The notes under the pieces are model-generated. The model did no database searches. It was given only the letters and a program-made list of their open reading frames with translations, and was not told the origin of the DNA. From Serendipita indica DSM 11827 (Eukaryota > Basidiomycota > Agaricomycetes > Sebacinales > Serendipitaceae), in contig CAJVGD010000001.1 in assembly GCA_910890315.1 (NCBI GenBank), positions 930,001 to 994,000 on the forward strand: a stretch of 64,000 nucleotides of DNA. Direction: 5' to 3'. How positions within the stretch are numbered: the stretch's first letter is position 1; every line of letters starts with the position of its first letter. The position numbers were made by a program, and so were the translations under genes. Of this stretch, positions 17,352-43,261 are shown piece after piece.

Positions 17352-17857
17352 AACGAGTAAGCGAAGAAAGGGAGACCATTTGTTCTGATGAACTGGCTTT
17401 ATGAGGTTTCGTGGTACAGAGGAGCGCCGGGATGATATTGGGCGAGTATCGCCTCGGCGACGCGACGGTCAATCAGACGAATCAAGCTTCTAATCCTCAT
17501 AGCCAAGGATTAAAATTAAGTGATCGACTCATAGGACTCTAGACTTGATGTGACGCATATGGTGGCTGTTCTACTAATCACTAGGTCCACCCAAAGGACG
17601 TATTTGAGGCTGAATTGCTGGAGATTCCAAGGTGGAGAGAGAATCCAACCTTTGATCAAATCCTCACAACATTCCACGCGTCCAGACACTTCCAGAATCC
17701 CCCTAAAGGTAGCGTCACGCCGCTTGCAGAAGCCTCGTGTTTCCAGCGTGCGCAAGGGGCATTTGTGCGATTATAGAGAGCCGAGTTGAGTCGTGCTCGT
17801 AGGTGGCAATCAGATCCAAGATTGTTTTATAAGTCGTCACTCAGCCCCGGCCACATC
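17352..17857. other. Intergenic region between paralog B and the 17.9-kb gene
   Basis: This is a 506-bp divergent promoter region. No conserved frame, tRNA-like box pair or repeat was recognised. Confidence 0.5.
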
Positions 17858-19604: not shown

Positions 19605-19999
19605 TTCAGTATCGTACAGGTCTCGGTGATGATCGTATATGTGGGTGGTTTCCTGTCGGTAGGATGTCTCTCCAGAGCTGCAACTCTTTTCACGTTTTGG
19701 TCGTCCAGATTTATTCGACGCCATTCATATTGTGATTTGTATACTATTTTCCAGCAATTTCATGTGAATCCACTCTCGTCTCAACAATCCGCAAATGCTG
19801 TGACTTCGATGTCCAATACCAGACCTATTGTACAGATTAGATATGACAATATGAATAAACTTCAGGAGTTGTGTCCGGCGGCCGAGATTTCGCCACGACA
19901 CAGCTTGAACCTCGCACGTACACTATTCCGTGAGATACATGGGAATATATCGAAAGGAGTGCACAGGCGTTTAATAATCACACTTTGGACCCGGCCATA
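19605..19999. other. Intergenic region upstream of KEX2 copy 1
   Basis: This 395-bp stretch separates the unrecognised gene from kexin copy 1, both on plus. It must hold a terminator and the kexin promoter. The last 15 nt before the kexin ATG are identical to those before kexin copy 2. Confidence 0.5.
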
Positions 20000-22789
20000 A
20001 TGCGTCTTCTAGGGCTACTATTATTCTTGACCAGCCCGGCGCTGCTGGAAGCCTCGTTGAGACCTGCAAAACGTTCTTATGACACACACAGTTACTATGT
20101 TATCCACCACGATCCCTCCTTTGGCCAATCCCCAGCCGACAGCGCAGCGGCGTTGGGCGCAGAGCTCGTGGAACAAGTTGGAGAACTCCAGGACCACTAT
20201 CTTGTCCGCTACGAGAAGGATTCCCAACCAGAGCGAACGCTCTTCGACGCTGGGAAGGAGCCAGTCACCCGCCGCAAGAATGTCTTAACACGAAGACATG
20301 ACAATCTCCCGCCATCTATTCGTTCTTTGACATACCAGACCGTTAGACAGCGTGTCAAGCGTGCACCGGTCCCGTCGTTTCCATCCGTAGACAAAGTGGT
20401 CTCGGAGTTCAATATTCACGACCCGCTTTTCTCCTCGCAATGGCATATCGTCAACAAGGAGGATCCACAGTATGTTGCAGTATGTACATTCGGTGTATTC
20501 GCTGATATTCTGTCGCGTGTAGACACATGGTCAATGTGACTGGGCTATGGAAGGAGGGAATCACTGGAAAGGGAGTGATATCCGCATTGATAGATGATGG
20601 ACTAGATTATACAAGCGACGACCTAAAAGCGAACTTTGTAAGCCATTTCGTCTCGAGAATTGGCAGTTTGCTGACGTGCGTACAGTATGCACCAGGTTCG
20701 CACGATTTCAACGACCACGAAGACTTGCCTACACCAAAGTTATGGGATGACAAGCACGGCACGCGATGTGCTGGAGAAATTGCTGCCGTCAAGAACGACG
20801 TCTGCGGGGTTGGCCTTGCGTACGATTCAAAAGTGGCAGGAATTCGCATTCTCTCTGGGCCAATCTCAGACGCGGACGAGGCTGTTGCCTTGAACTTTGG
20901 ATTCCAGGAGAGCCAGATTTATAGCTGCAGCTGGGGACCACCAGACTCTGGACAAGCTATGGATGGGCCTAACCTCATTGTCAGCAAGGCGATCCTCAAT
21001 GGTATCAATAATGGTCGTGGCGGTAAAGGTTCAATTTTTGTGTTTGCCTCTGGAAATGGTGCTGCCGTGGGAGACTCGTGCAACTTTGATGGATACACCA
21101 ATAGTATCTACACCATTACCGTTGGCGCTATTGATAGTAAAGGGCTACACCCTTTCTACTCAGAGGCCTGTGCGGCGAACCTGTTTGTGACCTATAGCTC
21201 TGGGTCAGGCAAGTATATCGTAAGTATCATCAACTGTTCATTTCTTATTCTGATAGTTCTTCAGTCAACAACAGATGTTGGGGAGAAATGTTCTAGGCAC
21301 CATGGCGGCACCTCGGCTGCGGCGCCTCTTGCTGTGGGTGCATTCGCTCTGGCGTTAAGTGTTCGGTGAGTATGTGTATTTTAGTCTCGAAGAGATCCTC
21401 TGATTGTATAAGACCGGATCTTACCTGGCGGGACGCCCAGCACATTGCGATTCATGCCGCTCTTCACTTCAATCCAGAAGACCCCGACTGGGAAATGACA
21501 GCAAGCGGTCGACCATATTCCTACAAATATGGATATGGTAAAATGGACGCATATACATTGGTTCATATAGCAAAATCATGGCAACTCGTCAAACCACAGG
21601 TCTGGATGTCCCTGCCAACCATCGAGTTTGAAGATGCCGCGATGGAAGATGGAGTGATGACTGGAGGTCAACCCATCAAGGAAGGAGGCGTTCGCAGTAC
21701 GACCACTATCACCAAAGCCATGCTGGAGGAAAACAACTTTGAGAAGTTGGAACACATTACCGTCAAAGTGTGGATCACGCATACCCGCCGTGGTGATGTC
21801 GAGGTCCAATTGATCAGTCCTGCTGGCATCAAAAGCGTTCTTGGCTCTCGTCGACCAGGGGACCACGCCGATACTGGCTATCCTGGATGGACATTTATGA
21901 CCGTCAAGCATTGGTAGGTTTATCAAGAGCTATTCTATCTCCTATTGATTTATTTAGGGACGAGAACCCTATTGGACAGTGGACGCTGCACGTTTTCGAC
22001 CAAGGCAACTCGGAAGCTGGTTCGATTCTCGGATGGTCTATGACGCTTTGGGGATCTGCAATTGATCCTGAGGATACTGAGAAATATGAACTTCCTGACG
22101 ACCCGAACGAAGGCCACAATCTGCCACCGCATCCGACAGCAACGACATCGACATCCAAGCAGCATGTTAAACCTACACATCACCTTCCAGAAGATCATGG
22201 TTCACAAAGTGGCGAAGCAACGCGACCTGCATTCCATCCCACGGATTCCAAGCCGGGAACAGCTCCGACAAACTCTTCGTCGACATTGCCAACGGATGAA
22301 GGCGTATTCACGCACATGTATGATCTGATGCGCAACCAGCTCTGGTTGATTGGAGCGTTTGGTATCGTGATCATCTTTGGTGTGGGAGCTGGTGTATTCC
22401 TGTGGAGACGACGACAAATGGCGAAACGGGCCAAGGGTACATATGCGCAGATTCCAGGAGACAATATGCCAATGCGTTCGATGGAGGGACAAACTGCAGG
22501 AAGTGGAGAACCGGGCAGCGGAGAACGAAGTGCAGGAGGTACGAGGGAGCTGTACGATGCATTTGGTGTTGGATCGGACGATGAGGATGAAGCCGACGAA
22601 CACAGTGCACTTACTGGGGGTGGTGCGAGTCGATACGTGCAGCAAGCGACCGTGTCCTACCACGACGGCTTCCTGGATGACGAGGGGACTATCTACTGCT
22701 CACACGGCCCGTACAACGTACAGAGACGAACCTGGTCCGGAGGAGACGCAGCAAGAGGCCAGCCATTCGCCGCCACGAGAAGGGAGTGA
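20000..22789 (+). CDS. KEX2: Kexin, Golgi proprotein convertase (copy 1)
   Basis: This is a calcium-dependent subtilisin-like serine protease of the late Golgi that cleaves secretory precursors after Lys-Arg or Arg-Arg. The ATG at 20000 opens a signal peptide (MRLLGLLLFLTSPALLEA). A pro-region ends at the autocleavage site VKRAP. The catalytic triad is visible: Asp in ALIDDGLDYTSDDL, His in DDKHGTRCAGE and Ser in HHGGTSAAAPLAVG. The oxyanion Asn is in FASGNGAA and the substrate-pocket segment is SCSWGPPDSGQAMDGP. A P domain (DVEVQLISPAGIKSVLGSRR to ILGWSMTLWGS), a Ser/Thr stalk, a membrane helix (LIGAFGIVIIFGVGAGVFLW) and an acidic cytosolic tail follow. The tail keeps a Tyr motif (VSYHDGF). 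After the G run at 22684-22687 the frame differs from the one conserved with copy 2, whose equivalent stop would lie at 22821-22823. Four introns are present. Confidence 0.95.
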
Positions 22790-23119
22790 CGGAAGCTGGG
22801 AGGATACTTCTGCAAGGGCATAGATGGAGCATTGTGACCTCATTACCTATTTTACCTATTTATTAGTATGTATTGATCCAAGTTTTGGAATATTGTGAAT
22901 ATTCTTTGTTGGGAGCTATCGACGGCAAACTCCACCGAGCAACGGCGCTCCTTTCGGCGCGCGGATGAGGTAACAAGGCAGTGCAGCCGATCGGATTAGT
23001 GGCCAAGTGGCCAGTTGCGTAAAGTTTCCGCCGGTCTTTGTGGCTCGGCCAGTGGATTTCCCGAGCGCCATCACACAAACTTGGACTCTTCGTCATTCGT
23101 CCTCTTTCCGTAATCAACC

Positions 23120-24612
23120 ATGGACGCTGATCCAGCGCAATTACTACAATATTATCGCAGAGCTGCAGAAGATGCAGGTGTCTTTAAACGACAAGGTCCA
23201 GGTGAGGCGTCGATTCTCCATAGTTCAGGAATTAACAGCTGACAATTTACGCTTTATTTGATCATCTTGACTTCCTGTACATGTTCAATCTCATCGTATA
23301 TGCCCATTCCTTCCGCTTGTCGTGAATCTCAGATGAACCCACGTCGACGGGCTCTACGCTCCCTCCAGAATCTTCTACGGCACTCACATCGTCACTTTCG
23401 ACTGCTTCAACTGCTTCAACACTTTCAACGGCTTCGACGCGCTCAACTGCATCCACTTTGTCCACTCGTTCCACCCAATCCTCAAGTTCAAGCCGCCCCC
23501 CTAGTTCCGCTGTGCCCAGTTCATCTACAGCGATTATGACCACGACTTCATCCGCAATCCAAACAACCGATTCGCAGGGACAAGTCATTACTAGCTTCAT
23601 TTTTGTCTCAGCAACGAGTACCGTACCTGCTACCACCGGAGGCGGAACTCAGGGTAAATCGACTAATACGGGTGCGATTGTGGGTGGAGTTGTCGGAGGG
23701 ATCGCGCTCGTTGTCCTCGTTGCTCTTGGCATATGGCTTGTGCGCCGGAAGATGAAGAAGGATGAGTTTGAAGCAAACATCTTTGATCTAGACCGAAACG
23801 TAGAACGTCCGACATCTATGCGACCCGGTCAAAACTTTGATATGGCTGCTGCGGGTGTCACTGCCGGGCGAACGAGCGCAGCCGAAAGAGAGGCAACGAA
23901 TGTGACACCCTATCCATATGCTCCCACATCAACTGGACCTGCAACGGCGTCTCATTACGGATCAAGTGTAGGTGGTCAGCCCGAAATGCAACAAGCGCAT
24001 ACTGGACTCGCATATTATCACGATGTGCCACAAGCCACATACCAGGACAACAATTATGGTAATTGGAACGCGAATACGCCTACAGTCAACGTCGGAGAAA
24101 CGTTCCCGAACCCATACGGGCCTAACTATCACCCAGCGGCGATGGGAGGTGCTGCGGCGGCTGGTGGTGCCGCTGCCATTGCTGCTCACCGTGGCTACAC
24201 AACCTCTCCGTCGAATGCGTCGTCCTACCCGGCTTCTAGCTATCCACCTACATCGGTTTACTCGCCTCCACCACCAGACACTGGCCGTATCTCTCCCAAC
24301 TCACCCCCGATGGCAGCGGGAACATCCCTTGCGCCGACGAATGCCCGTAGTGCAAAGGAGCGCGAAGCATTCTCGCGGACGTACCAAAATCAGGGTTATA
24401 TGGTCTCAAATCAGAGCGAAACCGGTGCACCAGCCCGCTCGAATCCTTCCCCTACGCCGTCTCGCTCGTCCGCAGCTGGAGGAGCTGGCCCAACGTCGCC
24501 TGTTCGTGTCCATCAGGATGGTGGACGCGTACCGGATGCAGATGATGATGACGCGGCTGGGGAGATTCCGCCAACGTACGACTCGATACCTCGTGACCAC
24601 GTTGCGAGGTGA
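23120..24612 (+). CDS. Single-pass membrane protein with Ser/Thr-rich region and long cytosolic tail
   Basis: The function is unknown. The ATG at 23120 gives MDADPAQLLQYYRRAAEDAG, and an intron from about 23202 to 23332 joins RQGP to DEPTSTGSTLPPESS in frame. A Ser/Thr-rich stretch, with repeats of the type STASTASTLSTAST, leads to GAIVGGVVGGIALVVLVALG, a Gly-rich membrane helix of the kind seen in fungal wall-sensor-like proteins, followed by VRRKMKK. The tail of roughly 270 aa is rich in Pro, Ser, Tyr and Ala and ends DSIPRDHVAR. No classical signal peptide is visible, so either the N-terminal exon is wrong or the protein inserts by its single helix. It lies downstream of kexin copy 1 in the same orientation. 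Confidence 0.72.
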
Positions 24613-24915
24613 AAAAAGGCTTAAATATTTCTTGGGATGGGGGACTACTCAGTGCTAGGTATTCTGCGTACCATCTCCGACTCTTTTTGTCACGAACAAA
24701 GGACTGATTCAATTCTCGGCGTCCGACGCTCGACTTCCGAGCGATTACTCAATGTATCATCTGCTAACGAAATCAAGAGAACCAATGAGACAATCCCAAA
24801 ATGTGGCTGAAGTAGCCTTGACTGTGGTGCACAACTTGAACTGAGCCGTATCCGTTGGTCCTTGCCACTCCTGAGCCAGTGGCCTGCATCTTCCTGACAC
24901 ACTCGGAGTCTCAAT
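24613..24915. other. Intergenic region upstream of the Rad5-like gene
   Basis: This is a 303-bp tandem intergenic stretch holding the end of the membrane-protein gene and the promoter of the SNF2 gene. Nothing further was recognised. Confidence 0.5.
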
Positions 24916-27900
24916 ATGTCAGAGTATAAAATTGAGTACTCGCCTTCCAGCCGTGCAGCATGCAGAGGTCAGTATTGCTCACTTCAAGAAATTGTTGTTG
25001 CTGACAACTACAGGCCCCAAGCCATGTTACGGCACCAAGATTGAAAAGGGAAGCCTCAGATTTGGTGAGCTATCAGAGAATGTGTTCGACGAAGACCACC
25101 CGGTCTGGAAATGGCGGCATTGGTGAGCCCCTTTGGGAAACGGCATAGGACGCACTCATTGACGCATCTGTGAAACTGTAGGGGATGCATGACTCCATAT
25201 CTTTTGAGACAATTGAAGAAATATCCTAGAGGGGTTCACGGTCTCTCAGGCTTTCAGCTCCTCCGGTTCGTCTCCGATCTTTTTCTGACCCACTGTTTAT
25301 ACTCTATAGGGTCGAAGATCAGCAAAGAGTTGTTTCTGCTGTCGAACGTGGTCAAGTGGATATGGCCGATATCCCTGCCTCTGCTCGCACCTTTGACCCC
25401 AACTTGCTCCCTACCACGCCTGCCGCAGCGGTCGCTAGTTCAAGCCAAGCAAGCGCAAGCTCAAATGCTGCCGGCAAGAAGCGCAAACGTGTCGAACCAC
25501 CACCGTCTAGTCAGGCTTCGACTACATCTCGTCGTTCGGATATTATCGAGTTGAGCGACAGTGATGATGATGTCGAGGTGGTGCATATGAAAAAGAGACA
25601 GAATATTGGACCGTCTGTTACTCAAAATTTGACGGTGGCTGGTCAGTCTACGGAGGTCATCGATCTCAGCGACAGCGACAATGACGAAGATGCCGGACAA
25701 GGTATGTGTCATTTTGGGGCAACGTACTGTCTCTTACCCCCCTGTAGACGAAGTCTATACTCATTTTGCGTCGTCTGTTGTTGGGATCAAATACTATAGC
25801 GGCCTCGTCGGCATCGGCGAACAGGTCAAACTTATCAGACAGCCAGAGAATGCATATGATCGCAATGCAATTTCAGTCAAAAATATATCCGGTGTGTTGA
25901 CAGGTGGACCACCTTGGGAATACTCAACATATTCGCAGGTGTACAAGTCGGTCATATTCCGAAGGATGGTAGGATCATGTACCAATGCGCGAAGGATATA
26001 ACTTACTCTTTGTCAGTTGCTATGCGTTTGTCTCCACTTATCGACAGGGGCTTGATCACCATTGAGGGCACAATGACCTCTGGAAATCTCTATGGCAAAG
26101 CTGGTTGGAAACTCGATATGTAGGATCTTTCCTTTAGCTCTACCTTCTATATTGATTTGCTTCAGTGATATTGCCATCATCGGCCCTAGCGACCCTCAGC
26201 GACGAAAAGCTTTGGAAGCAAGCTTGATTTGGGCAACTCCTGGACAATGTGGTTTTGAAGCCATGAAATCCCAGACCAACGTCGCGGGTACCTCTGTTTC
26301 AGCCAAGAAGGCTCGAGCCGGTCAAGCAAATAGCGCGGGCCTTGGATCTATTGATGCCGCCAAAGCTGTCCAGCTGCGCAACATCATGGAGAACATGAGC
26401 AGACTTGATGATGTATCACGGCGTGATACGATGCTCAATTCGCTTTGTGGTGACGACGTCCTGGAGCTTCCTGAGTACCCATCACCCCCTTCACGTGCTT
26501 CCGGAGTCCTCAAAAATGATCTCCTCAAGCATCAGGTAGGAGTAAAGCTCTGCGTCCGACTAGTCCGTTTACTCGTTTCACAGAAACAAGGCCTTCAATG
26601 GTGTATCAACGCCGAGAATCCAGTTTTACCGAAAAAAGAAACAGACAAGCCAGTCCAATTTTGGCAAATTCAGAAGACTGGAGCTAAGGCGAGTATTCAA
26701 CGGAAGTGCGCGGCTGGATGATTGACCTGGGACCAGACTTATTACTACAATAGTACGCTGAAAATCAAAGGAAGATCAATACTCACATATGAATAGTCGC
26801 AACCAGAACTCCTCAGGAAACTGCACCAGCCCTTGGTCGGGGAGGTATCCTTGGTGAGCGTAGTTTTTATTCCCTCTGCTCTTCTCATGCTTTAAACTAG
26901 CCGACGACATGGGACTCGGAAAGACTCTGACTTTACTGAGCTTGGTCGCGGCTACTAAAAAGGATCGAACTGCTTCACCATTCTGCAATGCCACACTCAT
27001 TATTGTGCCTCTTTCCGTACTTTCCAACTGGGAGACGCAAATTGTAGAACATTTCACAGAGGACAGCGACATCAAGTTTCACGTCTACTACGGTAATGGC
27101 CGGAACGTGAAGCCATCATTCCTCGAGGCACAAGATATTATTATCACAACCTATCAATGCGTCGTTGCGGATATGCCTCCTGCGAAAATGATCAAGGGTG
27201 TAGACGGAACCGAAACCATTCAAGTGAACAAGGCCAAGTCTGGCCTTTTTGCTGTAAATTGGAAGGTATGTTATACCATTCTCTCAAATCAATCCAGAGT
27301 CTCAACGTCCTAAGCGCATTTGCCTTGATGAAGGACACACGATACGCAACCCAAAAACAAAGATGGCTCAGGCATGCTATGCCCTTTCCGCAGAGCGTCG
27401 ATGGGTCGTATCTGGAACCCCGATTGTGAGTTGTGTCGGAATTCCGTTGTACAGGCTCATGACCATTTTAGATCAATAATCCTTCTGTAGGATCCATGGA
27501 GCATAGTTTGTCAAAATGTTGACATACGCATAGGATTTGGGCTCTCTGCTGCGCTTTTTGCGTATTTGTAGCCCTCTCGACAAACCAGAGTTTTTCAAGC
27601 GACTATTGTCGAGGCCACTCTCAAAGCGAGACCCATACGCCGCCGACTTACTCAAGGTCGGTGACGTCTCACTTTTCACCTTGATTTCTGAAAGTTTGCA
27701 GGCCTTGATGAGCTCTTGCTGCATTCGAAGAACCAAGGAAATGCAAGACAAAAACGGCAAGGCCTTGGTGCCCCTTCCACCAGTCACGTTCAATGTCATA
27801 CCTGTGAAACTGGACGAAAAGACGAGAGAGTTTTATGATACGGTCGAAGAAGAATCGCGAGCGTTGATTCAGGACTACCTCGCAAGAGGAGCAAACAGAG

Positions 27901-29613
27901 AAGATGTGAGCCACTGCTTACAGAAAGGTTAAGCCTAAACTCTTGCAGATGCCAACAGGTGTAAATGTACTAAGTATGCTTACGAGACTTCGCCAAATCG
28001 CATTGGATCGCAGCCTCGTCCCGACGCGATATCTCGAGGTGTGAACAGCTGCAGTGTAATACCTAGATCTTATATCATTTACCCAGGATCTTCGCGCCGC
28101 TGCGAAGGCACACCAGCACTCGGTAGCCGCACCTGCCGCATCCAACATCAGTCCAGAGGAAAAATCTAGACTTCAGGATCTTCTTGCGCAGGCTATCAAG
28201 GACTGTGAAGAGTGTAAGCATCCTTACAACTACCTCGCAGGTCGTTGATATCTCCTCAGGTCCAATTTGTTTCGAGGCCCTGACCGACCCTCGTATCACA
28301 ACATGTGCGCATCGATTCTGCTTGGAGTGCATCGTGGAGGCAGGTTCTGTGGTTCTACTGTCTTCACCATCTAATCTCTCTTTTTAGACTATCAACCGCC
28401 AGCAGAAATGTCCTTTGGTGAGTATACCTATTGGTGAGTATTTTTTTTCACTGATAGGAGATAGGATCGTCGTCAACTGCGAGTCGAGGATCTCATAGAG
28501 CCTCGGCCACCACAAGAAGACGAAGAACAAGGCGACGATGAGTCTGAAGACCACCTAGGCATAGAAGAAATAGCTCCTTCCGCAAAGGTCCAACAGCTTA
28601 TTCAAATTCTTCGAGTTCTTCCCTCCGATTCCAAGTCGCTCGTCTTTTCTCAATTTACGTCTTTCTTGGACATTGTGAGTTGACCCTATCGTGCAAAGAT
28701 TATTTCTGAAAGATCAATAGATTGGTATACAGCTTCGTAAAGAAGGTACGAGTAGCAAAGACATGGTACCTTACTGACTTAATTCCAGCATCCCTTACGT
28801 TCGCTTCGACGGCACTATGAGTGCAAGCAAACGCAAGGCCGTGTTGGAACAGTTTTCGGAGCCAATTTACACAGAATTTGACGATCAGGAGACCGAACCG
28901 GAAACCGAAGATGAAGATGCATATCGAGAGTATATAGAGAGAAAGAGGCAGAGACGAAAGGGGAAAGCGCGAGCTGTCTCGCGATTCATTGAAAGCGGAC
29001 AGGCGAAGAACCCTGTGGTCATGCTCATCTCCCTCAAGGTACGCTTTATTCATTCCTGTTCCCAGCTTCTAACCCTCCTGAATAGAGCGGTGCACTTGGT
29101 CTCAATTGCACAGTGAGTATATTAGGCTTTACTAAAACTCGTCTTATCTATGCAGGTCGCAAACAATGTGTTTTTAATGGATCCATTTTGGCACGTGAGT
29201 AAATTGACTTTTACAAGAGTTCATGTTAACAATCTCCAGGATGCAATCGAATCTCAGGTTCATTTTATACTTATAACCTCGCCTTCACTAACTTAATGAA
29301 GGCTATTGATCGTGTCAATCGTCTTGGGCAGAAAAAGGAGGTATTTGTATATCAGATGGTAGCTGAGGATACCATCGAGGCGAAGGTGAGCCTCTCATTC
29401 GGTATGGCGTACACTCTAACATTTCCCAGGTGCTCTCGATTCAAGAGCGTAAAAAGGAGCTTGTTCGTCAGGCATTCTCAGGAACTAAGACTCACCAGAC
29501 TCAGCGGGAGAAGAAGGAAGCCAGGTAAATACGCTTGCAATATGACTGTCTTGCACGCTGATAGTGTTTCTAGACTACAAGAACTAATTGAACTTTTTGG
29601 TCGGAGAGAGTAG
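24916..29613 (+). CDS. RAD5: Rad5/HLTF-like SNF2 translocase and RING E3 with an N-terminal PARP-type zinc finger
   Basis: This is a nuclear DNA-damage-tolerance protein; the Rad5/HLTF family polyubiquitinates PCNA and remodels stalled forks. Domains in order are as follows. A PARP-type zinc finger is spliced from exon 1 (MSEYKIEYSPSSRAACRG) into PKPCYGTKIEKGSLRFG and WKWRHWGCMTP, with a C-terminal helix VEDQQRVVSAVERG. Two acidic SUMO-interaction-like motifs follow (IIELSDSDDD, VIDLSDSDND). A HIRAN domain has VVGIKYYSGLVGIGEQVKLI and VGHIPKD. The SNF2 N-lobe has ADDMGLGKTLTLLSLV, IIITTYQ, DEGH and VVSGTPI. An embedded RING follows (CPICFEALTDPRITTCAHRF, then CPLDRRQL). The helicase C-lobe has SLVFSQFTSFLDII, FDGTMSASKR and AIDRVNRLGQ. 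It ends LIELFGRRE. About twenty introns are present, one of them GC-AG (26689-26736). Length is near 1,170 aa. The RING inside the helicase and the HIRAN identify the family; the PARP finger is the extra element. Confidence 0.93.
26689..26736 (+). other. GC-AG intron in the Rad5-like gene
   Basis: The exon end GCTAAG is followed by GCGAGT, and the acceptor is accag at 26732-26736. Removal joins QIQKTGAK to TYYYN, and the next intron (26753-26796) joins this to IATRTPQETAPALGRGG, the expected continuity before the Walker A motif. No GT donor gives this frame. Confidence 0.65.
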
Positions 29614-29666
29614 ATCTTTGCACGGCCCTAAGGTGTAACGTTGCCTTTTCCAATGAACATGGTCGA

Positions 29667-31872
29667 TTACACTGCCTCGAGCGTCTGAGCAGTAGTTAGA
29701 ATGGCTCATTCCATGAATAGGCAAACTAACCTGAAGAACTTGACTTAGCATAGCGTCAATCTCTGGACCTGAAATTCCAGGCACCGCCGCCGTCAGCAGC
29801 TTTCGATAGTTGCCAATCTTTCCAACGTCGGAAGACTCTGTCAATGAGTGAGCGTACTCATTGACGAGTCGGTCCGTTTGTTGCGACAGTGCTTCAATCT
29901 CTGCCCTGAGCTTCTGACATTGTTCGTCCTGTTCGACTTGCGAGCGTGGGATGTCTGAACATAGCTCCATCAAATCTGAAGCATCTTCATCCGGTGTCGA
30001 GCCCTTGACCACAGCTTCTGGGGAAAATGCAATTGTCTCTCGGGTCAATCCACGACCAGAAGCCCAAACCATCTTTTCCCACTGGTCTTCTTCACAGAGC
30101 CATTGCAGCATACCCGTCTTGCTTCGTCGGATTGTAATGTCGATGACCTCTGACTGGAGGGTCTCCAACTGTGGCTTCCTCCCACCTAGTAATTGCAAAT
30201 CCCGGTTTTTGAGTTCATCAATGGATTTTTGTGTTGATTCGACCTCCTTCTCCAACTGTGCGAGAATGCCTTTTGCCTGGAAGAGCTCCCGTTCACGATA
30301 CTTGAGCTCACCATCTAAGCACACCAGTAGCTCGTCAAATCTTTGCGTCATCTCCGTAAACACTTCGTCTCCTGCTCGCCGTACAGCTGGCAACTCTTGT
30401 GTCCTGGGGTCGAGCGCGCCAAGGCGAAAGAGCGTCCTTGCGGCGATGGTAGGAGATGATCTGAAGCGCTCGTCGTCGACCACATAGTCTTCTGCAGACT
30501 TTCCATCGTTATTCTTGAGATGTGGGTCCGCACCATGATCTAGCAACGCCTTGACGAGTCGCTTGCTGCGACATCGTGCGGCCATAGTGAGCGCCGTTTC
30601 TCCATCTGCGTCCTGAAAGTTGATAATGTCTGCAAGTTCTTTCGGATAGTCGGATAGGCGAGCTAGAGCCGTCTCCATATAATATCGAGCCGCATGAATC
30701 TTGCCCTTGGTCATGGCAAGGTCAACAATATGGTGGAAGACGGTGCGGTTGTACGAATCAATGTTGAGTGTGGTACGATGGAGTAATTCATAAAGCTCGG
30801 CAAACTTGCGGATGTCGTAGTTGTTCGCATATGACACCGCACGCATGAGTGCAGTTGTCCCGGTGGTCGTAACCTTGAAAGGATCCGCGCCAGCAGAAAG
30901 AAGAAGCTTGACTATACGGATGCGACCCATGGCGGAAGCCCAGTGTAATGCGGTGTGTCCCTCGTCGTCAATGTCTACATTGACGTCCAGGCCGGGGGTG
31001 GGTGGATAAGAAGCTGTGGTATTTGTGCAGTGTCCGTTAGAAAGTATTCGAGCATGGCATTTTTGAAGCTATCTGGCTCTGGCGAATCTTGTTTCCGCTG
31101 CTTCCTCGGGGATGGCTGAACAACCTCGACCTCCTGACCATCTCGAGAGAGTGTTGTGACGGATGCAACAGGGGATGGAGTCGCAGAGGGTTCAGATGAC
31201 CCCCCGTTTCCGGAGTATCTCTCCGACTCTTCAGATGGGTGGCGAGCACTCCTGGTGCGTGTGGAGCTGTATTCCGCCGGACTCCGATGTCTACCCTGCT
31301 TGAACCCTGGTGGAAGGAGGTTGTTTCCAACCACCGTATGCTTTGGTGCCAGCGGGGGGCTGTCTTCCGACGGCCTGTAATCAATGATAGGACGCAGTTG
31401 TGGCTCGACCTCGTATTGCCTAGCAAGCGCGAGGGCCGACTCTGGAGGAACCCATGTACCTGCAGAATGTGCAGTTGCAAACACACAAAGGGAACGCGTG
31501 GTCAGGACGTGCATGCAAACGCGTGTTGGAGGGAATAGGAACGCACCTTGGTACTTTCCGTAGCCACCTTGGACCTTTTCATGGACCCCCTTTTGCACTT
31601 CGCGCTCTAAAACGCGTGTTCGCTGTGGTTTGTCGAAGCCGGCAACTTTGAGGATTTGGGTCGCGTTAAGCCAGCCGTCTGCGCGTCTTCGCATGACCGA
31701 GACACCCTCAGATATCCTAGAGCCAAGTTATGAATTTGAGGAGCGAGCCAACGACGACGCGACTTGCATCTCATAGACAGGCACACCGCTGTAGGTCGCC
31801 TAGATGCTGCTTAGCACATGTTCCTTATATATGTGGCCTATCATTGTTCACCTTGAAGATTTGCGGAGGCAT
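29667..31872 (-). CDS. MBP1: MBP1/Res-type APSES cell-cycle transcription factor
   Basis: This is the DNA-binding subunit of an MBF-like complex that drives G1/S genes through MluI boxes. The start is ATG 31870-31872 (MPPQIFK), spliced to ATYSGVPVYEMQ and then DISEGVSVMRRRADGWLNAT, which rebuilds the KilA-N/APSES domain with the recognition region GFDKPQRTRVLEREVQKGVH and GGYGKYQGTWVP. A Ser/Pro-rich linker follows, then ankyrin repeats (IDDEGHTALHWASAMGRIRI, DADGETALTMAARC, HGADPHLKNNDGKSAEDYV), a coiled coil (CLDGELKYRERELFQAKGIL) and a C-terminal helix. The last intron joins MLSQVLQ to TLEAV, with the stop at 29667-29669. The frame changes at the G5 run 30994-30998 inside IHPPPGLDVNVD, where one base appears to be missing. 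Length is about 690 aa. An MCB-type ACGCGT lies upstream. Confidence 0.9.
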
Positions 31873-32216
31873 TTTCGGGGATTTCCACCGGAAAGCGTCA
31901 ACGACGTTGGGGGTCAAAGTTGTTGGTTGACAATCCGACATCTTGCCCAGTCCATACTAATCGATAAGGAAACGCATCCAAGTAAATTTACGTTTGTGGA
32001 TGGCGAATCTAGCTCATGTCCATCGCACATCCCATTCAAGTCGTCGCGTCGAGAAGCGCGTCATGACGTGCCTCACGCGTCAAATAGCATCATTGAATAG
32101 CTCGAAATGTCCATGATTGCATTCACTGTTAAGCCGGCCTTGATTCTTACAACTTCTGCGCGACCCGCTCAAGTGTCGATGTGAAGAGTTCCAATGGATA
32201 AATAGAATAAGTCAGT
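31873..32216. other. Intergenic region upstream of MBP1
   Basis: This 344-bp stretch holds the MBP1 promoter (minus) and the 3' end of the adjoining minus-strand gene. It contains one ACGCGT at 32075-32080 and no convincing frame. Confidence 0.5.
32075..32080. promoter_or_regulatory. Candidate MluI cell-cycle box (ACGCGT)
   Basis: The palindrome ACGCGT lies about 200 nt upstream of the MBP1-like start codon. In yeasts MBF binds this hexamer. A single occurrence could be chance, and ACGCGT also occurs inside the gene's own coding region. Confidence 0.3.
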
Positions 32217-33071
32217 CTACTGATACAGTGTCAACGGCGATGATCCGATGCCCAGTGCCAAACACGGAAGGGGTGGTGGTACAATGAGTCTATCATCCTC
32301 TAGAGTCGATGCCGAACAGGGAGTGTCACCTCTGTCACGTATTTTATCAAGCTCGAGGTGAGATGGAGTGCTTCGGGGGGAATTTTGGGATGAATGCGCG
32401 GTCGGGTGTGGGCTAGGCGAAGTCGGGGGAAACTGGTACCGGACGGAGCGCGAGGGTGATGGCATGGCTACGAACACGCAAATTTGTGCAATGGTATCGA
32501 GCTGTTCCAGTGGTGGTGGTGAGGACGGCTCCGGACGTGGACAAGGGGGAGACGGCTGCTCGTCGCTGGGAGAGGAGGAATCTTCGGACCGCGGAGTGTT
32601 CAAGTCATCTCCTTTGCATACTCCATTTGATTCTGGTAAAGTGGAATCTGTCCTTGAGCCTGTCCTCGCCTCGTCTTTGGCATACTGAGGGGGATCCGGC
32701 TCTGTATAGTCGACAGAGAGTCCAAATGGCTGCGATATGTATGAGTGTGATTCACTGCGACAAATATGACCCACTTGTTGGCTATGCCAGTATGCTGCAT
32801 CCGTCTGCGCCCTTGGATCCACATAAACTTCGAGTAGCTTTGGCTTTCGGGCACGGCGTCTCCGCTGTTGTATGATTTGTTCTACCGCGTCTTGCTGGTT
32901 TCTGAGGTTTCGAATGACCCTCAAGACGACGGGTCTAACAAGAAAAATGCCGCAGATGCATAAGATGGCAAATAGACCAAGAAGCACGCCGATGAGGAAT
33001 CTTTCCGCGGGTTTGCTGTCAACATCAGCAACTGGAGCGTCTGAAGACGCAGCGGTCGACGGCGAGGCCAT
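32217..33071 (-). CDS. Single-pass membrane protein with Pro/Ser-rich tail
   Basis: The function is unknown. The first ATG in the open frame is 33069-33071 (MASPSTAASSDAPVADVDSK); the frame extends further upstream only from a TTG, so the ATG was chosen. An N-terminal segment of about 22 residues precedes a membrane helix (FLIGVLLGLFAILCICGIFL), followed by a strongly basic cytosolic patch (QQRRRRARKPKLLEVYVDPR) and a long Pro/Ser-rich tail ending PLTLYQ at 32217. Length is about 284 aa with no intron seen. There is no signal peptide, and it resembles other short-ectodomain fungal membrane proteins only in architecture. An upstream exon cannot be excluded. Confidence 0.6.
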   Translation of the reverse strand: MASPSTAASSDAPVADVDSKPAERFLIGVLLGLFAILCICGIFLVRPVVLRVIRNLRNQQDAVEQIIQQRRRRARKPKLLEVYVDPRAQTDAAYWHSQQVGHICRSESHSYISQPFGLSVDYTEPDPPQYAKDEARTGSRTDSTLPESNGVCKGDDLNTPRSEDSSSPSDEQPSPPCPRPEPSSPPPLEQLDTIAQICVFVAMPSPSRSVRYQFPPTSPSPHPTAHSSQNSPRSTPSHLELDKIRDRGDTPCSASTLEDDRLIVPPPLPCLALGIGSSPLTLYQ

Positions 33072-33385
33072 CCAGTGGCACAGACGGCGTGAACGACGAG
33101 GCCAGGATGTGCGGATTGGTTGCAAATGTGCTCCAACAGGGTGCCGAAGGGCTTTAAGAGCGACGCCATGTGCTCAGCGGGTGGTCGAAGCATATCCATG
33201 CGGTCAAGGAGAAGCGGCGTCGTTGAAAAGCCTGACAACACACTGGAACCGCCGTAGCGGCAACATGGTCTCTGAAATATCAAAAATGCTACTATACACA
33301 TTTTCCAACGTCAAATGCTGCTTAGCACCCGTGCCGATTTATGAATGAACCCCCTCTCCACAAGGGCCACTTCCCTCATCCTCGT
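33072..33385. other. Intergenic region between MON1 and the 32.2-kb gene
   Basis: This is about 314 bp in tandem orientation on the minus strand. It holds the MON1 3' end and the promoter of the membrane-protein gene. Nothing further was recognised. Confidence 0.45.
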
Positions 33386-35448
33386 TTAGAACACGGGAGC
33401 ATCCCGCAGAAAGAGCTTGGCCTCTTCACGTTTCACCCAAGACACGACCGCGTTGGCAGCTCCAATGGCCGCACTCTTTGGCAGTCGCGGAGACAGCGCG
33501 ATGTAGATTTCAAACGATTTTGTGATCTGCATAATGCGAGTTAGCCACGTTGACCCTCGGGATGAATCATATGCCGCTCACCCATCCCATCACGCTCACT
33601 GCCTCTGTCCGTACATACTGCAGCTTGAGTGTGCATTCCTGACCCGACTTGGCGTGTATAGCGTCCCAAACGACGCGATATAGGTTGAACAGTCGCTCCC
33701 ATTCGTCCTCTAGCTCTACCTGGTCCCTCTCATCATGCGCGTGGGCTTCGATCCCGTTAAAGATGGGGGAGGTGACCTGCACATTCGGCCGACTCTTAAA
33801 GAAAAAATGCCGAAGTCCTGGGATGCCGAGTTCATCTACCGAATACGTGCTTCGCTGTGCAGCCTTGAGCAATTGTCGCAGTGTCTCCCCATCGCGAAGT
33901 CGATTCGTAGCCACGTCCGCCCACTGACGTACAACCTCAAAGTCTCCAGAAGCTGAGACTATTACCAAACACACGGCAGGCGCGTGTGTTCCACCCGTTA
34001 ATGCTGCATCTTCCTCGTTCTCCCGCGGTGCTTCGCCAGCTTCGGCAGGCTGCGAAGCGCTTGCGGCACTGTTACTTGGTAGCTGGAGGTAGGAGGCATA
34101 TGCGTGCAGAAGCCCATTGGAATTGAAACGCGGAAGGCAAATAGGCAGCCAGCTCGCTGCGCTTCCCTTGACTGCGGGCGAGCCAATCGTCGCCAGTAAA
34201 ATATGCATGTCCGCTGGGTGAACCGTGTGTTTCTTTGGTCGTGCAATCGTCACAACCTTGTCGTCGACGAACACAATGGCATATAAAATGTCCTTGAGCC
34301 GCGTCTTCATATTAGGTGGAGGGACCAGTGCATCTGCGACTCGAAGTCGGAGCCCAGAGTCCAGGCGTAAGGTGCTCAGTGACGAGGCGAGAATTGCAAA
34401 GGACCTCGGAAGGTGATCCAAGTACGACTCGAGCATGGTGGTAGTCCCCGACAAGAGCCGACGAAGGTCATAGTTGGCATGTCGAGTTAGGATCCGCTCC
34501 AACTGGGATCCAGTGAGCACAGATAATATAAGTAGATGTAAATGTTCCAAATATATTCTCGCCTGACGCTGTGAGCCATGGTATAGCACTAGAGGGAGGT
34601 CTTACCACAGACTCTGGTTCCGCGAACGGCGTGACGCATACATAGTACAGCGGCGGACGAATTGTAAAGGTTATTCGGACTGGTGGAGCGATAATGGACC
34701 TGACGCAGTTTCAGGGTCACCACCTTTGTCGGTTAAAGGGAAAGGCTTACCGAATCTTGTCCTGGTCATCCTCAAAGACGGAGATGAGCGCGTGCATGAC
34801 ACCAATCAAGTTGGTAATGTCGTCGCCCTCTGTTTCGTCAATCTTCCTGTTGGTGAACACGGGTTTGCCAGCATGAGTGAGCACGAAGAATTGGCGCGGC
34901 GGAAACTTTTGCTCATGAGACGGATCGTATGGTATATCACGTATATCTGTACGTGGCTCTGCTCGCATTGGGGGTTCATGAGAAAAGGTCTTCATACAGA
35001 TGATGAAGGTTCGACGAGGTACTCACTCACCACGACCGCGACTCAGACTCTTCTTGAGCTGCTCTCTGAGTCTCTCAGCATCAGCTGCCACTTCTTCTGG
35101 TGAGCGCATGAGATTTGGTGTCGCCCCATCCGATCCTGACGAGTCTTCCATGAGATAAACATGATCACTCGAGCCATGGTGACTATTAGAAATGATGTTT
35201 CCTCCATGTGAGAATTCAGAGATGGACGCGCTTGAGCTGAGGACGCCTGATGGTTCAATCGTCACGGCTTGGTCACTGGACACTTGTGCTGGGGATGCTG
35301 ATGCCATTAGTTGAGCATTAGTGAGTGCACGGGATGGCACAGAGTTGTGACTCTTGATTGACGGTCGCCGCGAGCTTGACGGGGTCACAGGACGCGAAGG
35401 AGTGGGGGTTTCGTGCCGCGAGTGAGATCTAATATGTGTTTCCGACAT
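33386..35448 (-). CDS. MON1: MON1, subunit of the Mon1-Ccz1 Rab7 guanine-nucleotide exchange factor
   Basis: MON1 with CCZ1 activates Ypt7/Rab7 on late endosomes, vacuoles and autophagosomes. The ATG at 35446-35448 opens a Ser-rich disordered N-terminus (MSETHIRSHSRHETPTPSRP). A conserved longin-type region follows: FFVLTHAGKPVFTNRK, DDITNLIGVMHALISVFEDD, LVLYHGSQRQARIYLEHLHL, SGTTTMLESYLDHLPRSFAI, ILYAIVFVDDKVVTIARPKK and HPADMHILLATIGS, then PSWLPICLPRFN-like text (here SWLPICLPRFNSNGLLHAYA). The C-terminal exon is joined through an intron near 33533-33587, turning VSVMGW into ITKSFEIYIALSPRLPKSAA and ending LFLRDAPVF with the stop at 33386-33388. Introns are short and the frames are clean. 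Length is about 600 aa, typical for fungi. Confidence 0.93.
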
Positions 35449-35565
35449 TCAAGTAAGAACTACACGCGTCTGAGCACGCCCAGGGAAATGCACAGCGGAC
35501 GTGGCAGCAGTGAAAGGGTGGCGACCACTTGTAAATGAACTACATCTTCATGTAACCATATTTTA

Positions 35566-35841
35566 TTAGTTGTTTAATATACGGTATATACAGATCCACA
35601 AACCTTGTACACCTTGGACTCGACCGTCAGTTGGGCTATAGCTAGACCCTTGACGACGAGCATCGTGATGCAATCTACTGATATTCTTGATTATCTCGAG
35701 TGAGTTTTTCAATTCCAAAGTGGCTAGGTCGACCTTTCCGCTGTGATGATCATCATAGAAGTCAAGCACGTACTGCAAAACATCCAAGGATGTCGCAGAT
35801 TGACGATTATACCATGCTAATCCTGATGCTTTGCTTTTCAT
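35566..35841 (-). CDS. Possible small protein of 91 aa
   Basis: I do not recognise this frame. It opens with ATG at 35839-35841 and reads MKSKASGLAWYNRQSATSLD, then an amphipathic helical stretch (VLQYVLDFYDDHHSGKVDLA, LELKNSLEIIKNISRLHHDA), and ends at TAA. The composition is protein-like over the first 65 residues, but there is no homologue I can name, and it may be a chance frame or an exon of an unmodelled gene. Confidence 0.2.
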   Translation of the reverse strand: MKSKASGLAWYNRQSATSLDVLQYVLDFYDDHHSGKVDLATLELKNSLEIIKNISRLHHDARRQGSSYSPTDGRVQGVQGLWICIYRILNN

Positions 35842-36337
35842 CTCTTTTTTCTAAATGGCCATTGACCGATGTTTTTTCCTAGGACAGCCAGCATCGCAAC
35901 TTTTAGGTGAGAATCTATTTTTCTCTTTTCACACCCGGGATGTTATACATCTTATCCGAGGCTTTTGCTGCTGAGGAGTTTACCCAAAAAAATGTCATAG
36001 TTACTCTGACCTTTCGTTCTCGTTTCTTACTGAACACTGCTGACCATGATTATTATAGATAGTTGTTGTACTCAATGTACTTAATTGTTGAATCCAGCCC
36101 GCTGCGGTCTCTGCTTTTCTTATCTTGAGCAAAGCCATCATGCCCGCTGCGTTGGAAAAGAAAATGGAATCCGTGCGAAGGCACTTTTAGTATCTGGGAT
36201 AAGACTGCACAAGCTCAACATCGATTCGAGGGGCGTGCCTTTCCGCAGCTCCTCCGTGAAGCGTGTCGAATAGTGGACAGGCTCAATGATCAAGCGATAC
36301 GCCAAAGCGACCTGCTGCGGTTTGGGCAGCCTGGCTC

Positions 36338-36344
36338 TATATAT
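36338..36344 (+). promoter_or_regulatory. TATA-like box
   Basis: TATATAT occurs about 100 nt upstream of the ATG at 36440, a usual distance for a fungal core promoter. It was recognised by position and sequence only. Confidence 0.4.
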
Positions 36345-36439
36345 CCTCACACTGCCTGCCCTACTGACGTCCTCGCCCGCTGATCTCTTGTCCCCGTCTG
36401 TTCCCTCGTCCTTTACGTCTCACGTGCGGCGGACCTGCT

Positions 36440-37634
36440 ATGGCTTCATCCTATCCACATATGCAGCAACGATATCGTGACGACGATGAAGACGGCAGCG
36501 CTGGCGTCCACGCTCCTTTACTCTCAACAGCTTCCCTCCCTGCCCAGCCCCGCTGGGCGCACGAGGTCAAGCAACTTGAAGAGCCTCGTCGTCGTCGCAA
36601 ATTCACGCTTACAATGGGAGCAGTCGCCTTGACCTATCTTCTGTACTGCGGATGGGTCGCCTATTCTCGATATGAGGTATGTTTCTGTCAACAGTGCGCT
36701 TCTCTTCGCTTCGCTCACGGCGCTTTCACAGACATCTGCACACTCCCGCGGAGCTTCATCCGAGGCTGATATTTTTCCGCATCCATTCCCAAGAATACCA
36801 CACCATCCAGCAGGGCCACCTCCCGCAATCTCTGTCCTGGGTTGTGCTTCAATTCCAAACCCTACCGAAGATATCGTGTCGGAGAAGATCAAGCTCACAG
36901 TCTCTTACCCGAGTAATGCCACGGTCGTCTTGCACCACAAGCTCCTTTTCGGTGATGTTATCGTCGAAAAGAACACCGACGAGAAAGAGGAGTTGGTGGA
37001 GCGCACCGAGGGGTCGACTTTGAACGTTGCTATCAAAGTGGCTGCACGCCCACCGTTCCCTGATCATTTCGTCAGTGAAGAGGAGGACGAGGAGACATTT
37101 GTTCTCTGTGCTACGACGCTGGTGCCTCACTCGACTCCGGGACACGAACACCCTCATTCAAGAATCGAGGGTAGCCATCCCCCTGCCCCGCCGCATCCTC
37201 ACGGCCGAGTGCATACCCCACCAGTTATTGTGGACATTTTCGTACGTCCTTTGTCATACCATGGATTTCAGGGCGCTGACTTGCAGCAGCCCGCCTTGAA
37301 CGAGACATATCCTAAACTTCCCCCTTCACCGTTTCCACATCACGGGCGAGGCAGGCGCCATCACAAGCACCTCGATACCAAGTTTTCTAATATTTGGAAT
37401 GCCGCCATTTCCTTCTTATTCCCCATGTTCACCGAGCTTCCAAGCAACCATGGCGATCGCCCGTGCCATGGAGCACCCCATCCTCCTCCGCCGCCATTCA
37501 TCGTGACCCAATTATCTGCCACTGTTTCCAAGACTAGCCACGTCGTTTATGGTGGCCCGCCACCACCACCACACCCATTCTTTTGGCATCCGCACCCCTG
37601 CCCAATAGACCAGTCAATATCGCTCACTCTCTAG
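36440..37634 (+). CDS. Type II membrane protein with His/Pro-rich lumenal part
   Basis: The function is unknown. The ATG at 36440 gives a charged cytosolic N-terminus (MASSYPHMQQRYRDDDEDGS) with PRRRRK before a membrane helix (FTLTMGAVALTYLLYCGWVA). An intron at about 36676-36731 joins YSRYE to TSAHSRGAS in frame. The rest contains LGCASIPNPTEDIVSEKIKL, a beta-rich stretch (KLTVSYPSNATVVLHHKLLF, STLNVAIKVAARP) that could be an LEA2-like or CARDB-like fold, and C-terminal His/Pro-rich segments (PPPPHPFFWHPHPCP). It ends SISLTL at 37634. The positive-inside rule favours a cytosolic N-terminus. The exact 3' exon is uncertain because a short intron near 37240-37290 is possible. Confidence 0.68.
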
Positions 37635-37999
37635 AGGAGACATGTGCTGTGTGGTTGATTCTAGGATTGCTTACTAGCCTCGACGTCGTGCAAGGGAAGT
37701 CGATGTGGCCCAAGGACTTTCTATGCATTATCATCCCTTACATCTGTACAAAGACGAAACGTACGCGTACATGATACTTGTGCTTTCTATCTGGCGGCCG
37801 GTTCACTGGCTTGGCTGAGCTGACTGAATGAGTGACTGTTGCGCTGCGGGCAAAGCCAGTGATCGTGAGGTCATCCCATCCGAGCAAGATGCCGCCCCGC
37901 AGTATGATACGCGTGTGTTCTCATCGAACTCAGGGCTATGACTGACTGTCCCCGAGGTGGCAGCTTAGGGGCTTTGCTTCTTGGAGTGCGACCACAACA
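37635..37999. other. Intergenic region upstream of the fasciclin gene
   Basis: This is a 365-bp tandem intergenic stretch with no convincing frame, repeat or RNA gene. Confidence 0.45.
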
Positions 38000-39851
38000 A
38001 TGCGTGTGGGCTTTGCATTCGCTTTGCTCGTTGGAGGAGTTCTCGCAGCTCCTGCGGACAATACTCGCAATGAATCTGACCAATTGCGCCTTACGCAGCC
38101 GATTACGAACCAGGCCCAGTCCCAAGTCGCGACCGCGCATGTTCAGCATGGAGTCAAAGAAACCAACCAGACAATCTACAAGTATCTCTCTCAGCAGATA
38201 GAGTTAGTTAATCTCTTCTTGGTCCATGCTGAGCGTCACAGACTAACCCAGATTTATATAGGTTCACCAAGTTGGTCAAAATTATTGACTGGGAAAAGTC
38301 ATACATCTCTGTTCTCAACTCTACAGATGATAAGTGCGTCAGATTACTATTCAATGAGTGTGTGGTTAATTGCTGTGCAGTATCACATTCTTTGCACCCA
38401 ATAACAAGGCCTTGACGCCTCCTAAACGTAGGCGCGACCATCAACGAAGCAGTCTCTCCCTCGCCCATATCTATGCTGAGCTAGAACGTCTCGAAGCCAA
38501 AGCCCAGAGACATGAAGGAGGCGATGACGATGATGACGAAGAGAAGAAGAAACGTTTCAAGAAGATTGTTCATGCACTTCTCAAGTATCATACGCTCCCA
38601 ACCTCTCTCGACAAGCCGGCGTTGTACAGAAACGCCACATATGAAACTGCGCTCAAGGCCAAGGATGGTTCGTTTGACGATCAGCCAAGGAGAGTCACCG
38701 CGTCGAATGATCTCATTGGACGACTTTTCATCAATTTCTGGGCCAAGGTCGAGTGGCTCTCTGTGTCTGCTGCCAATGGTGCGTTCTTGCTTTTGCAAGT
38801 CGAACTTTGCAAACCCGCTTTTAGGATACATATATACGACCAATCACCCACTCATCCCACCACCCTCTATCATGGATGAGCTGTTCCTTATTGACGACTT
38901 CTCGACTTTGGTCGGTAGTCGACAGATTCTAAATAAAATGAAACTGACCCTTCACTAGTCATCTGCACTGCAAAAAGTAGGACTCGACGACGCTCTTCAA
39001 TGGCGTTGGAAAAAGTCGTCTCCGAGACCCAAGGTGACGGCCCAGTGGTCTCGTTGTTCGCGCCCAACAACTGGGCATTCAAGCGGCTCCCAGCTCGTCT
39101 TCGCCTCTTGGCTTTTCTCCCCAGCCGGTGAAAAGGCACTCAAAAAACTCCTCCAGTTCCATATTGTACCCAACTATATCCTCCATTCGGGTACGTGGAC
39201 GCTGATTTGGCGCTCAAGTACTAACTCCAACCCATAGATTGGGTACATAAGGTCGAGGATGATGATGAGTCAGCTTTCGATATCGACGGTCAGGACTGGT
39301 ATGATGAAGTCAGAGCCATTGTGACTGGCTCTCCTGACCCAACTACGCTCATCAACCAGCTCCGAAAGCAATTCTACAAATGGTTCAATCCCATATTCAC
39401 CTCTCATCCTACGAAGGAAAAGACTGTCAAGAAATGTCGCCACCACGAGAAAAAGTATAAACGCTCGCTGATGCGTTTTGTCCCAGTCCCATCAGCTTGG
39501 CCTCCTCATCACTCTCCTCCAGACATCACAGTCAATATCACCGTACCTACGCTGCTGGATGATCACTCAGTCCGATTCGTGGTAGCCAAGCCAAAGAGGA
39601 ACGAACACCACCCGGAGAGTTCGATTGATAAACACAACGAAAGCCAGATGACCCCACCGCTTGCGAGGAGCTACGTCTTTGTCCATGGAAATCCAACTCT
39701 CGTTGAGGGCACCGCGCGCAACGGCGCAATCTATGCGCTTAGTCGCGTTCTTCATCCGTTCAAGCAAGTGCATCCAGATGGAGAGGATGTCTCCGAGGAG
39801 AAGATGTGGGAAGGCTGGGAGGATTGGCTACCTGCATGGGGCAATGCCTAA
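38000..39851 (+). CDS. Secreted fasciclin (FAS1) domain protein, two FAS1 repeats
   Basis: This is probably a secreted or cell-surface adhesion-type protein. The ATG at 38000 opens a signal peptide (MRVGFAFALLVGGVLAAP). FAS1 repeat 1 is spliced from FTKLVKIIDWEKSYISVLNS to NITFFAPNNKALTPP, with the YHTLP box (ALLKYHTLPTSLDK). An intron at about 38780-38820 joins SAANG to YIYTTNHPLIPPPSIMDELF, the start of repeat 2, followed by SSALQKVGLDDALQWRWKK. The FAS1 motif VVSLFAPNNWAFKRLPARLR then lies in another frame between the A run 39010-39014 and the T run 39113-39116. After it, SPAGEKALKKLLQFHIVPNY resumes in the original frame. The final exon (DWVHKVEDDDESAFDIDG) continues repeat 2 with ARSYVFVHGNPTLVEGTARN and ends WGNA at 39851. 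The main frame stays open through the slipped stretch, so the gene could still make a full-length product. Confidence 0.85.
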
Positions 39852-40019
39852 GTATCGACGATGAGAGATGATAGCAAAATCTAAGAAAGGCAGTTATGTA
39901 CGTCAGATTACTGTGAATTGAGACTCAAGTCCAGATACCTCTCCTGCCAGATACCGCCGTAAAACCGGAAGTTAGATACATGTGACGACTAAGGTTATAG
40001 GGTGGAAAAATAAGCTTTA

Positions 40020-42859: not shown

Positions 42860-43261
42860 TATGGCCGGGTCCAAGCTTTTGGCTAATTCCACGTCTACAC
42901 TGAATTCCAATTACTTACTTGATTCTCTAACAATCAAAACGGTTTACTTTCCTAAGTAACGCTTGGCACTCGCTCGCGGGCCAACAGCATTGCACAAGAG
43001 AAATCTGATAGCCTGCGATGAAGAATAAATACACAATAAAACATAAACGAATAATCTACGAATTTTGAATGCACAGTCGTGTCCGTTTGTTGTTGACCCA
43101 CGGCCAATTCAGCAACTTGACTCTGCTCGCAACTTGACGCCGTTTTCTGAATTTATCGCGGCTGGGATATCAAGGCGTCTGCTAGGAGAAACACACAGGA
43201 AAGCTCTGTTTACAGTGCCGGACTCATATCGCATTTTCCAACATTTGTTGGAGGTCGTTAC
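42860..43261. other. Divergent intergenic region between KEX2 copy 2 and the kinase gene
   Basis: This 402-bp stretch holds both promoters. Outside the 15 nt next to the kexin ATG it shows no similarity to the upstream region of copy 1. No frame or RNA gene was recognised. Confidence 0.5.

Follow-up and report, generated by a model that had tools for sequence, protein, structure and literature searches.

Two inverted kexin genes in Serendipita indica: an old pair probably homogenised in patches by gene conversion

What history could leave two nearly identical genes for one processing protease facing each other on a single contig, alike down to silent sites in some stretches and saturated with silent differences in another? 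The question is raised by Serendipita indica, a much-studied beneficial root endophyte, and concerns the KEX2 family of proteases, which activate secreted enzymes, cell-wall proteins and peptides. The pair might be an old duplication, a recent one altered by a third kexin, or a single gene counted twice through the merging of two nuclear genomes.

The two genes and their products

The window analysed here is a stretch of 64,000 nucleotides (C1:930001-994000) of a genome of 24,708,602 bases in 55 contigs, all of which was searched. Both published PiTEF primers of Piriformospora (Serendipita) indica match this genome exactly, 194 nt apart at a single locus, the forward primer nowhere else, and a PiHXT5 primer likewise has one exact match (primers from Table 1 of PMC4957513), which makes this species very likely. 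Copy A of the kexin (KEX2/furin-type) gene occupies 20000-22789 on the forward strand and copy B 42859-40109 on the reverse strand, the two facing each other in inverted orientation with about 17 kb between them. Comparison of the window with itself by BLAST returned a single large pair, 19985-22795 (+) against 42874-40060 (-), at 85.4% identity over 2836 columns; the flanks of the copies did not match each other, and no wider duplicated block was found, neither the self-BLAST nor an all-against-all comparison of 502 stop-to-stop reading frames of at least 60 aa revealing anything in common beyond the genes themselves. Spliced models, built by hand from GT-AG sites rather than from RNA evidence, give six exons in each copy: 20000-20469, 20523-20637, 20686-21219, 21265-21365, 21413-21913 and 21958-22789 (+) for A, which encodes 850 aa as sequenced, and 42859-42390, 42334-42220, 42171-41638, 41588-41485, 41438-40938 and 40892-40109 (-) for B, which encodes 835 aa as sequenced. 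The five introns of each copy are short (44-55 nt) and correspond in position. The self-BLAST and the models thus bear out an earlier note on this DNA, which had described two inverted kexin genes 17 kb apart. A P-domain profile matched the genome at A and B only, the DNA of copy A found itself and B and nothing else, and no third kexin was found by these two whole-genome searches. Of 19 subtilase matches at exon level, the remaining 17 were tried as further kexins and rejected, having no P-domain match nearby.

Both products carry the catalytic motifs DDGLDY (residue 181), HGTRCAGE (219), ASGNGA (316), whose Asn we take to be the oxyanion residue, and HGGTSAAAP (386 in A, 387 in B). In Pfam searches Peptidase_S8 spans residues 172-449 of A (9.1e-39, residues 1-803 searched) and 172-450 of B (6.3e-39, residues 1-807 searched), and P_proprotein (PF01483) residues 519-604 of A (3.5e-27, 94.8 bits) and 520-605 of B (3.4e-27, 94.8 bits). 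The P domain contains an RGD in both. The nearest solved structures listed for the two copies are kexin and furin; the PDB entries 1ot5, 1r64 and 2id4, titled ‘Kexin’ and presumably representing S. cerevisiae Kex2, scored best, with 1.6e-83 for the reading frame of A that holds exons 2-4 and 2.6e-71 for exon 3 of B. By eye, both translations begin with a hydrophobic N-terminus, MRLLGLLLFL..., which is a putative signal peptide; the propeptide ends at the putative dibasic autocleavage site VKR|APVP; further on come a Ser/Thr-rich stretch (TATTSTSK...) and a long hydrophobic stretch, LWLIGAFGIVIIFGVGAGVFL, which is a putative transmembrane segment followed by a charged tail. Both copies combine, as expected of S8B proprotein convertases, a Peptidase_S8 domain bearing the kexin-type Asp, His and Ser motifs listed in a published survey (PMC5371821) with a P domain. 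Over the 803 aligned codons of the shared frame, 2132 of 2409 nucleotides and 754 of 803 residues are identical, and with the motifs present in both copies the earlier description of near-identical kexins with all catalytic residues holds. We regard A and B as paralogous Golgi proprotein convertases, both probably working.

The completeness formerly attributed to the two genes extends to codon 803 in A and codon 807 in B, beyond which the tail is out of frame in each. Each copy has one 1-nt indel, at differing sites: in B just after SRYVQQ, in A some 40 nt later. As sequenced, the reading frames end at 22789 (A) and 40109 (B), and a similar tail (GLSTAHT..., REGSDGS...) is open in another frame of both copies, as seen from translation and comparison of reading frames over the tail ends, 22646-22823 (+) in A and 40195-40020 (-) in B. 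The former 3' ends, 22823 and 40020, belong to that other frame and not to the one that encodes the rest of the gene. A permissive GT-AG scan offers many intron options in each tail; among them, judged by eye, none was seen that would join the tail frames with a consensus-like donor and corresponding splice sites in the two copies. The start of the tail is alike in the two copies and includes a YAQI/YAPI motif, which may form part of a putative Golgi localisation signal. The tail of yeast Kex2 carries such signals, and if the frame changes are real they could alter where the enzymes reside. Since neither tail is in frame in the present sequence, any statement that both genes are fully functional is weakened; the indels could possibly be two independent mutations within one short stretch, polymorphism between the nuclei, or errors left over from nanopore assembly. 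The published S. indica assembly (24.7 Mb, 57 contigs) was made from nanopore and Illumina data with Canu and Pilon (PMC8385953).

Silent-site divergence along the pair

Averaged over 803 codons, the pair shows Ks 0.55 and Ka 0.031 (Nei-Gojobori), with silent differences in 207 of 723 comparable codons. The average conceals a mosaic. The share of comparable codons with a silent difference is 66% in codons 324-416, but 26% in the codons before them and 22% in those after; pS reaches 0.892 (95% 0.738-1.040) in this core, which is saturation, and is 0.350 and 0.299 in the preceding and following blocks. A model with two breakpoints, placed best at codons about 324 and 416, gains 30.9 log units, against 11.9 in the best of 100 shuffles, and the windows of high difference were matched in none of 10000 shuffles at any of three window sizes. 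Low-difference windows taken alone (P 0.108 at W=40, 0.135 at W=80, 0.033 at W=100) are weak support for conversion. The core, 21070-21440 (+) in A with approximate borders, includes introns 3 and 4 and holds the catalytic Ser; it appears to be an old, unconverted block. Blocks and tracts alike were picked after the data had been seen. Base composition fails to explain the mosaic, since GC3 differs little between the three blocks (0.48-0.54). The introns carry weight here because they are free of codon selection, and they follow the same division: the copies agree at 98 of 145 sites in introns 1, 2 and 5 but at 39 of 91 in introns 3 and 4, which lie in the core (Fisher P 0.00024).

Set into the less diverged parts are long exact tracts. 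The longest, of 89 nt, comprises 15 nt before the ATG and 74 coding nt (A 19985-20073 (+), B 42874-42786), confirming what the earlier note had reported at this place, although it is one of at least four such tracts. It is followed on its 3' side by a 47-nt run (20084-20130, +); a 69-nt tract (20324-20392, +) covers the end of the propeptide and the KR cleavage site, where codons 109-135 are without silent difference; a 77-nt tract (21591-21667, +; codons 467-491) precedes the P domain, and one of 71 nt (21998-22068, +; codons 588-610) lies at its end. The six longest exact runs (89, 77, 71, 69, 47 and 38 nt) exceed those of column shuffles, the 89-nt run being equalled in 1 of 5000 and the others in 0 of 5000. 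In a stricter test confined to silent codons, the five longest runs of 26, 23, 21, 20 and 15 codons have P values of 0.026 (the longest by itself), 0.0019, 0.0003, 0/20000 and 0.0039; the first four lie, in that order, at codons 109-135, 2-24, 467-491 and 588-610.

The copies cannot be aligned upstream of -15, in agreement with the promoter divergence claimed earlier, nor past about the stop codon. The 18-mer TTGGACCCGGCCATAATG, with the ATG as its last three letters, has two exact copies in the genome, one at A and one at B. A mobile or repeated leader element was considered and rejected: six of the eight genome hits of this 18-mer have 2 mismatches, and two are exact.

Both proteins have been under strong purifying selection, with pN/pS of 0.112, 0.040 and 0.076 in the three blocks, and the fungus has therefore probably long needed both. 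Amino-acid differences number 26 in the 323 codons before the core, 5 in its 93 codons and 18 in the 387 codons after it, and they cluster in codons 256-295, which hold 11 of the 49 (shuffle P 0.0014). This segment aligns with the Kex2/furin loop that follows SCSWGPxD or SASWGPxD and that presumably lines the substrate pocket; the position of D in furin GKTVDGP is occupied by D in A and by E in B.

Old duplication with patchy conversion, and its rivals

How could a saturated block and tracts without silent change belong to one pair of genes? The two are hard to date alike, and an old duplication with later conversion is thus the simplest account. The mark of conversion between paralogs is present, namely silent-identical tracts within an otherwise old pair, non-coding sites included. 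We therefore favour, with a probability of about 0.83, an old inverted duplication, purifying selection on both copies and patchwise homogenisation by gene conversion that spared the block with the catalytic Ser. The earlier note had likewise proposed duplication followed by gene conversion and is supported in this, but had confined the conversion to the 5' end, while most of the gene appears affected except codons about 324-416.

The sequence of events might have been as follows. A duplication, evident from the pair itself, would have left the copies inverted and about 17 kb apart; its age is suggested by the saturated silent sites of codons 324-416. That the duplication arose locally is likely at most, because only the gene itself can still be aligned. 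Selection has retained both proteins, as pN/pS of 0.04-0.11 in the three blocks shows. Later repair of breaks between the copies would have transferred patches from one to the other, as the long identical tracts in an old pair and the introns that follow their blocks suggest. Conversion would have halted at the limits of homology, that is, 15 nt before the ATG and near the stop codon; the boundary is observed, and its cause is our reading. On that reading the 5' tract ends where it does because homology ends there, and promoters and 3' ends stayed independent because conversion stopped with it. To judge by family membership and protein anatomy, the signal peptide most likely directs each enzyme into the secretory pathway, where the enzyme would remove its own propeptide by cutting at VKR|APVP and then, in the late Golgi, cleave secreted proteins at dibasic sites.

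A functional variant of this history would have conversion homogenise signal peptide, propeptide and P domain while selection keeps parts of the catalytic domain distinct because the copies cut different substrates. The unconverted block does hold the catalytic Ser, and the cluster at codons 256-295 would suit such a division; yet that cluster lies outside the unconverted block, which is itself poor in amino-acid differences (5 of 93 codons), and we consider this modular form of concerted evolution unlikely for these reasons.

Could the core instead be the newcomer? Had the copies split fairly recently, as a flanking pS of about 0.3 would allow, and had the core of one copy later been replaced from a third kexin, since lost or introgressed, the same mosaic with breakpoints at codons about 324 and 416 would result, and a third donor is thinkable given that three KEX2 genes are reported in other Agaricomycetes (PMC9769878). 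This genome yielded no third kexin, however, and extra conversion would still be required for the silent-identical tracts. The flanking blocks are themselves uneven, the first having pS 0.10 in codons 1-40 against 0.36-0.46 in windows of codons 41-100, and promoters and 3' ends that cannot be aligned fit an old pair better. We judge a third donor to be decidedly improbable.

Conservation without any conversion, the tracts being held alike by constraint on silent sites through translation start, splicing or RNA structure, is very improbable. Constraint at the RNA level is plausible for the 5' tract, which lies over the start codon and the signal peptide, but the tracts also occur in the propeptide and the P domain, far from the start, and the intron sites follow the same blocks.

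Scarcely credible, finally, and rejected as the alternative it had been in the earlier note, is a false duplication through merging of two nuclear haplotypes in one contig: the strain of Piriformospora indica sequenced in 2011 is described as most likely a heterokaryon whose two haploid nuclei are distinct, and its assembly contained 1.87 Mb of highly polymorphic sequence with low coverage (PMC3192844), but A and B differ at 277 of 2409 coding nt, or 115 per kb, about 44-fold the published 2.6 SNPs per kb (PMC3192844), silent sites of the core are saturated, the copies are inverted with different flanks, and 31.1 kb around and between them are single-copy (12900-19900, 23000-40000 and 42900-50000 match only themselves in the genome).

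Kexins elsewhere, the neighbourhood and implications

To say that fungi normally have a single KEX2, as the earlier note did, goes too far. A survey of 83 species gives ‘most fungi’ 1 to 3 kexins and describes a family with little duplication and loss (PMC5371821), and Coprinopsis cinerea has three, KEX2a, KEX2b and KEX2c, which are partly redundant and partly specialised: deletion of kex2b or kex2c abolishes fruiting, and that of kex2c slows growth (PMC9769878). The pair described here resembles that case in the presence of several KEX2 genes within one agaricomycete genome; the account of C. cinerea, in the parts available and compared by description only, makes no mention of linkage, inverted arrangement or gene conversion (PMC9769878). 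The pair differs from ascomycetes in which kex2 has been knocked out, which are said to have one gene (PMC9769878). Epichloe festucae, like S. indica, has two kexin genes, kexA and kexB, which are called exceptional; they differ by one intron and are described as diverged, homogenisation going unmentioned in the text available (PMC2717940). S. cerevisiae Kex2p is said to lack the RGD that the P domain of A and B contains (PMC2717940). Kexins have also multiplied within one genome in Pneumocystis carinii, where 13 copies are subtelomeric, predicted to be GPI-anchored and under positive selection (PMC7940399), whereas A and B have a transmembrane-like segment and are under purifying selection. 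In P. indica the members of expanded families typically lie together, 2 to 7 genes to a cluster, and the clusters are attributed to unequal recombination at the locus (PMC3192844). Given these clusters and the kexin counts of other fungi, a linked kexin pair in S. indica agrees with what is known. By title, no published account of this pair was found in the literature on kexin and gene conversion, among the matches listed, or on Piriformospora indica and kexin; the word ‘kexin’ is absent from the main text of the 2011 genome paper (PMC3192844), and its sole occurrence in the available text of PMC8385953 refers to a Brachypodium gene.

Selected reading frames of the window were scanned with Pfam. 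Between the kexins, 29587-34601 (-) contains overlapping frames with ankyrin repeats and a KilA-N domain, probably one gene, which we take to be Mbp1/Swi6-like, together with a MON1/FUZ longin gene. Two frames, 23326-24609 (+) and 13890-14885 (-), have one long hydrophobic segment each and Pfam matches below cut-off only; Ser/Thr make up 51% of the first 120 residues of the former and 20% of the latter overall. Both may encode cell-surface proteins, and to see KEX2 clients in them is speculation. Related short frames without Pfam match at 15092-15780 and 16712-17468 (-), with 49% over 65 aa and 43% over 42 aa, are probably a small tandem gene duplication. Towards the ends of the window lie a gene with alpha-amylase and starch-synthase-type domains (4343-8917, +), probably an alpha-glucan synthase, and ATG9 (58900-61022, -); a 46-nt imperfect palindrome (82.6%) at 51587-51632 falls within the frame 50847-52634, which encodes an N-acetylglutamate synthase NAT domain.

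For work on S. indica, the presence of a second kexin may leave knockouts of a single gene without a phenotype, and any probe or guide RNA directed at the identical tracts would hit both copies. For the dating of duplicates, one pair shows an old unconverted block beside freshly converted ones, and whole-gene Ks should accordingly be used with caution (the mean here is 0.55, with the core saturated). The history itself is of a known and ordinary kind in the evolution of gene pairs; the detail added is a clean mosaic that spares the block of the catalytic Ser, in which a known evolutionary pattern is visible with unusual clarity.
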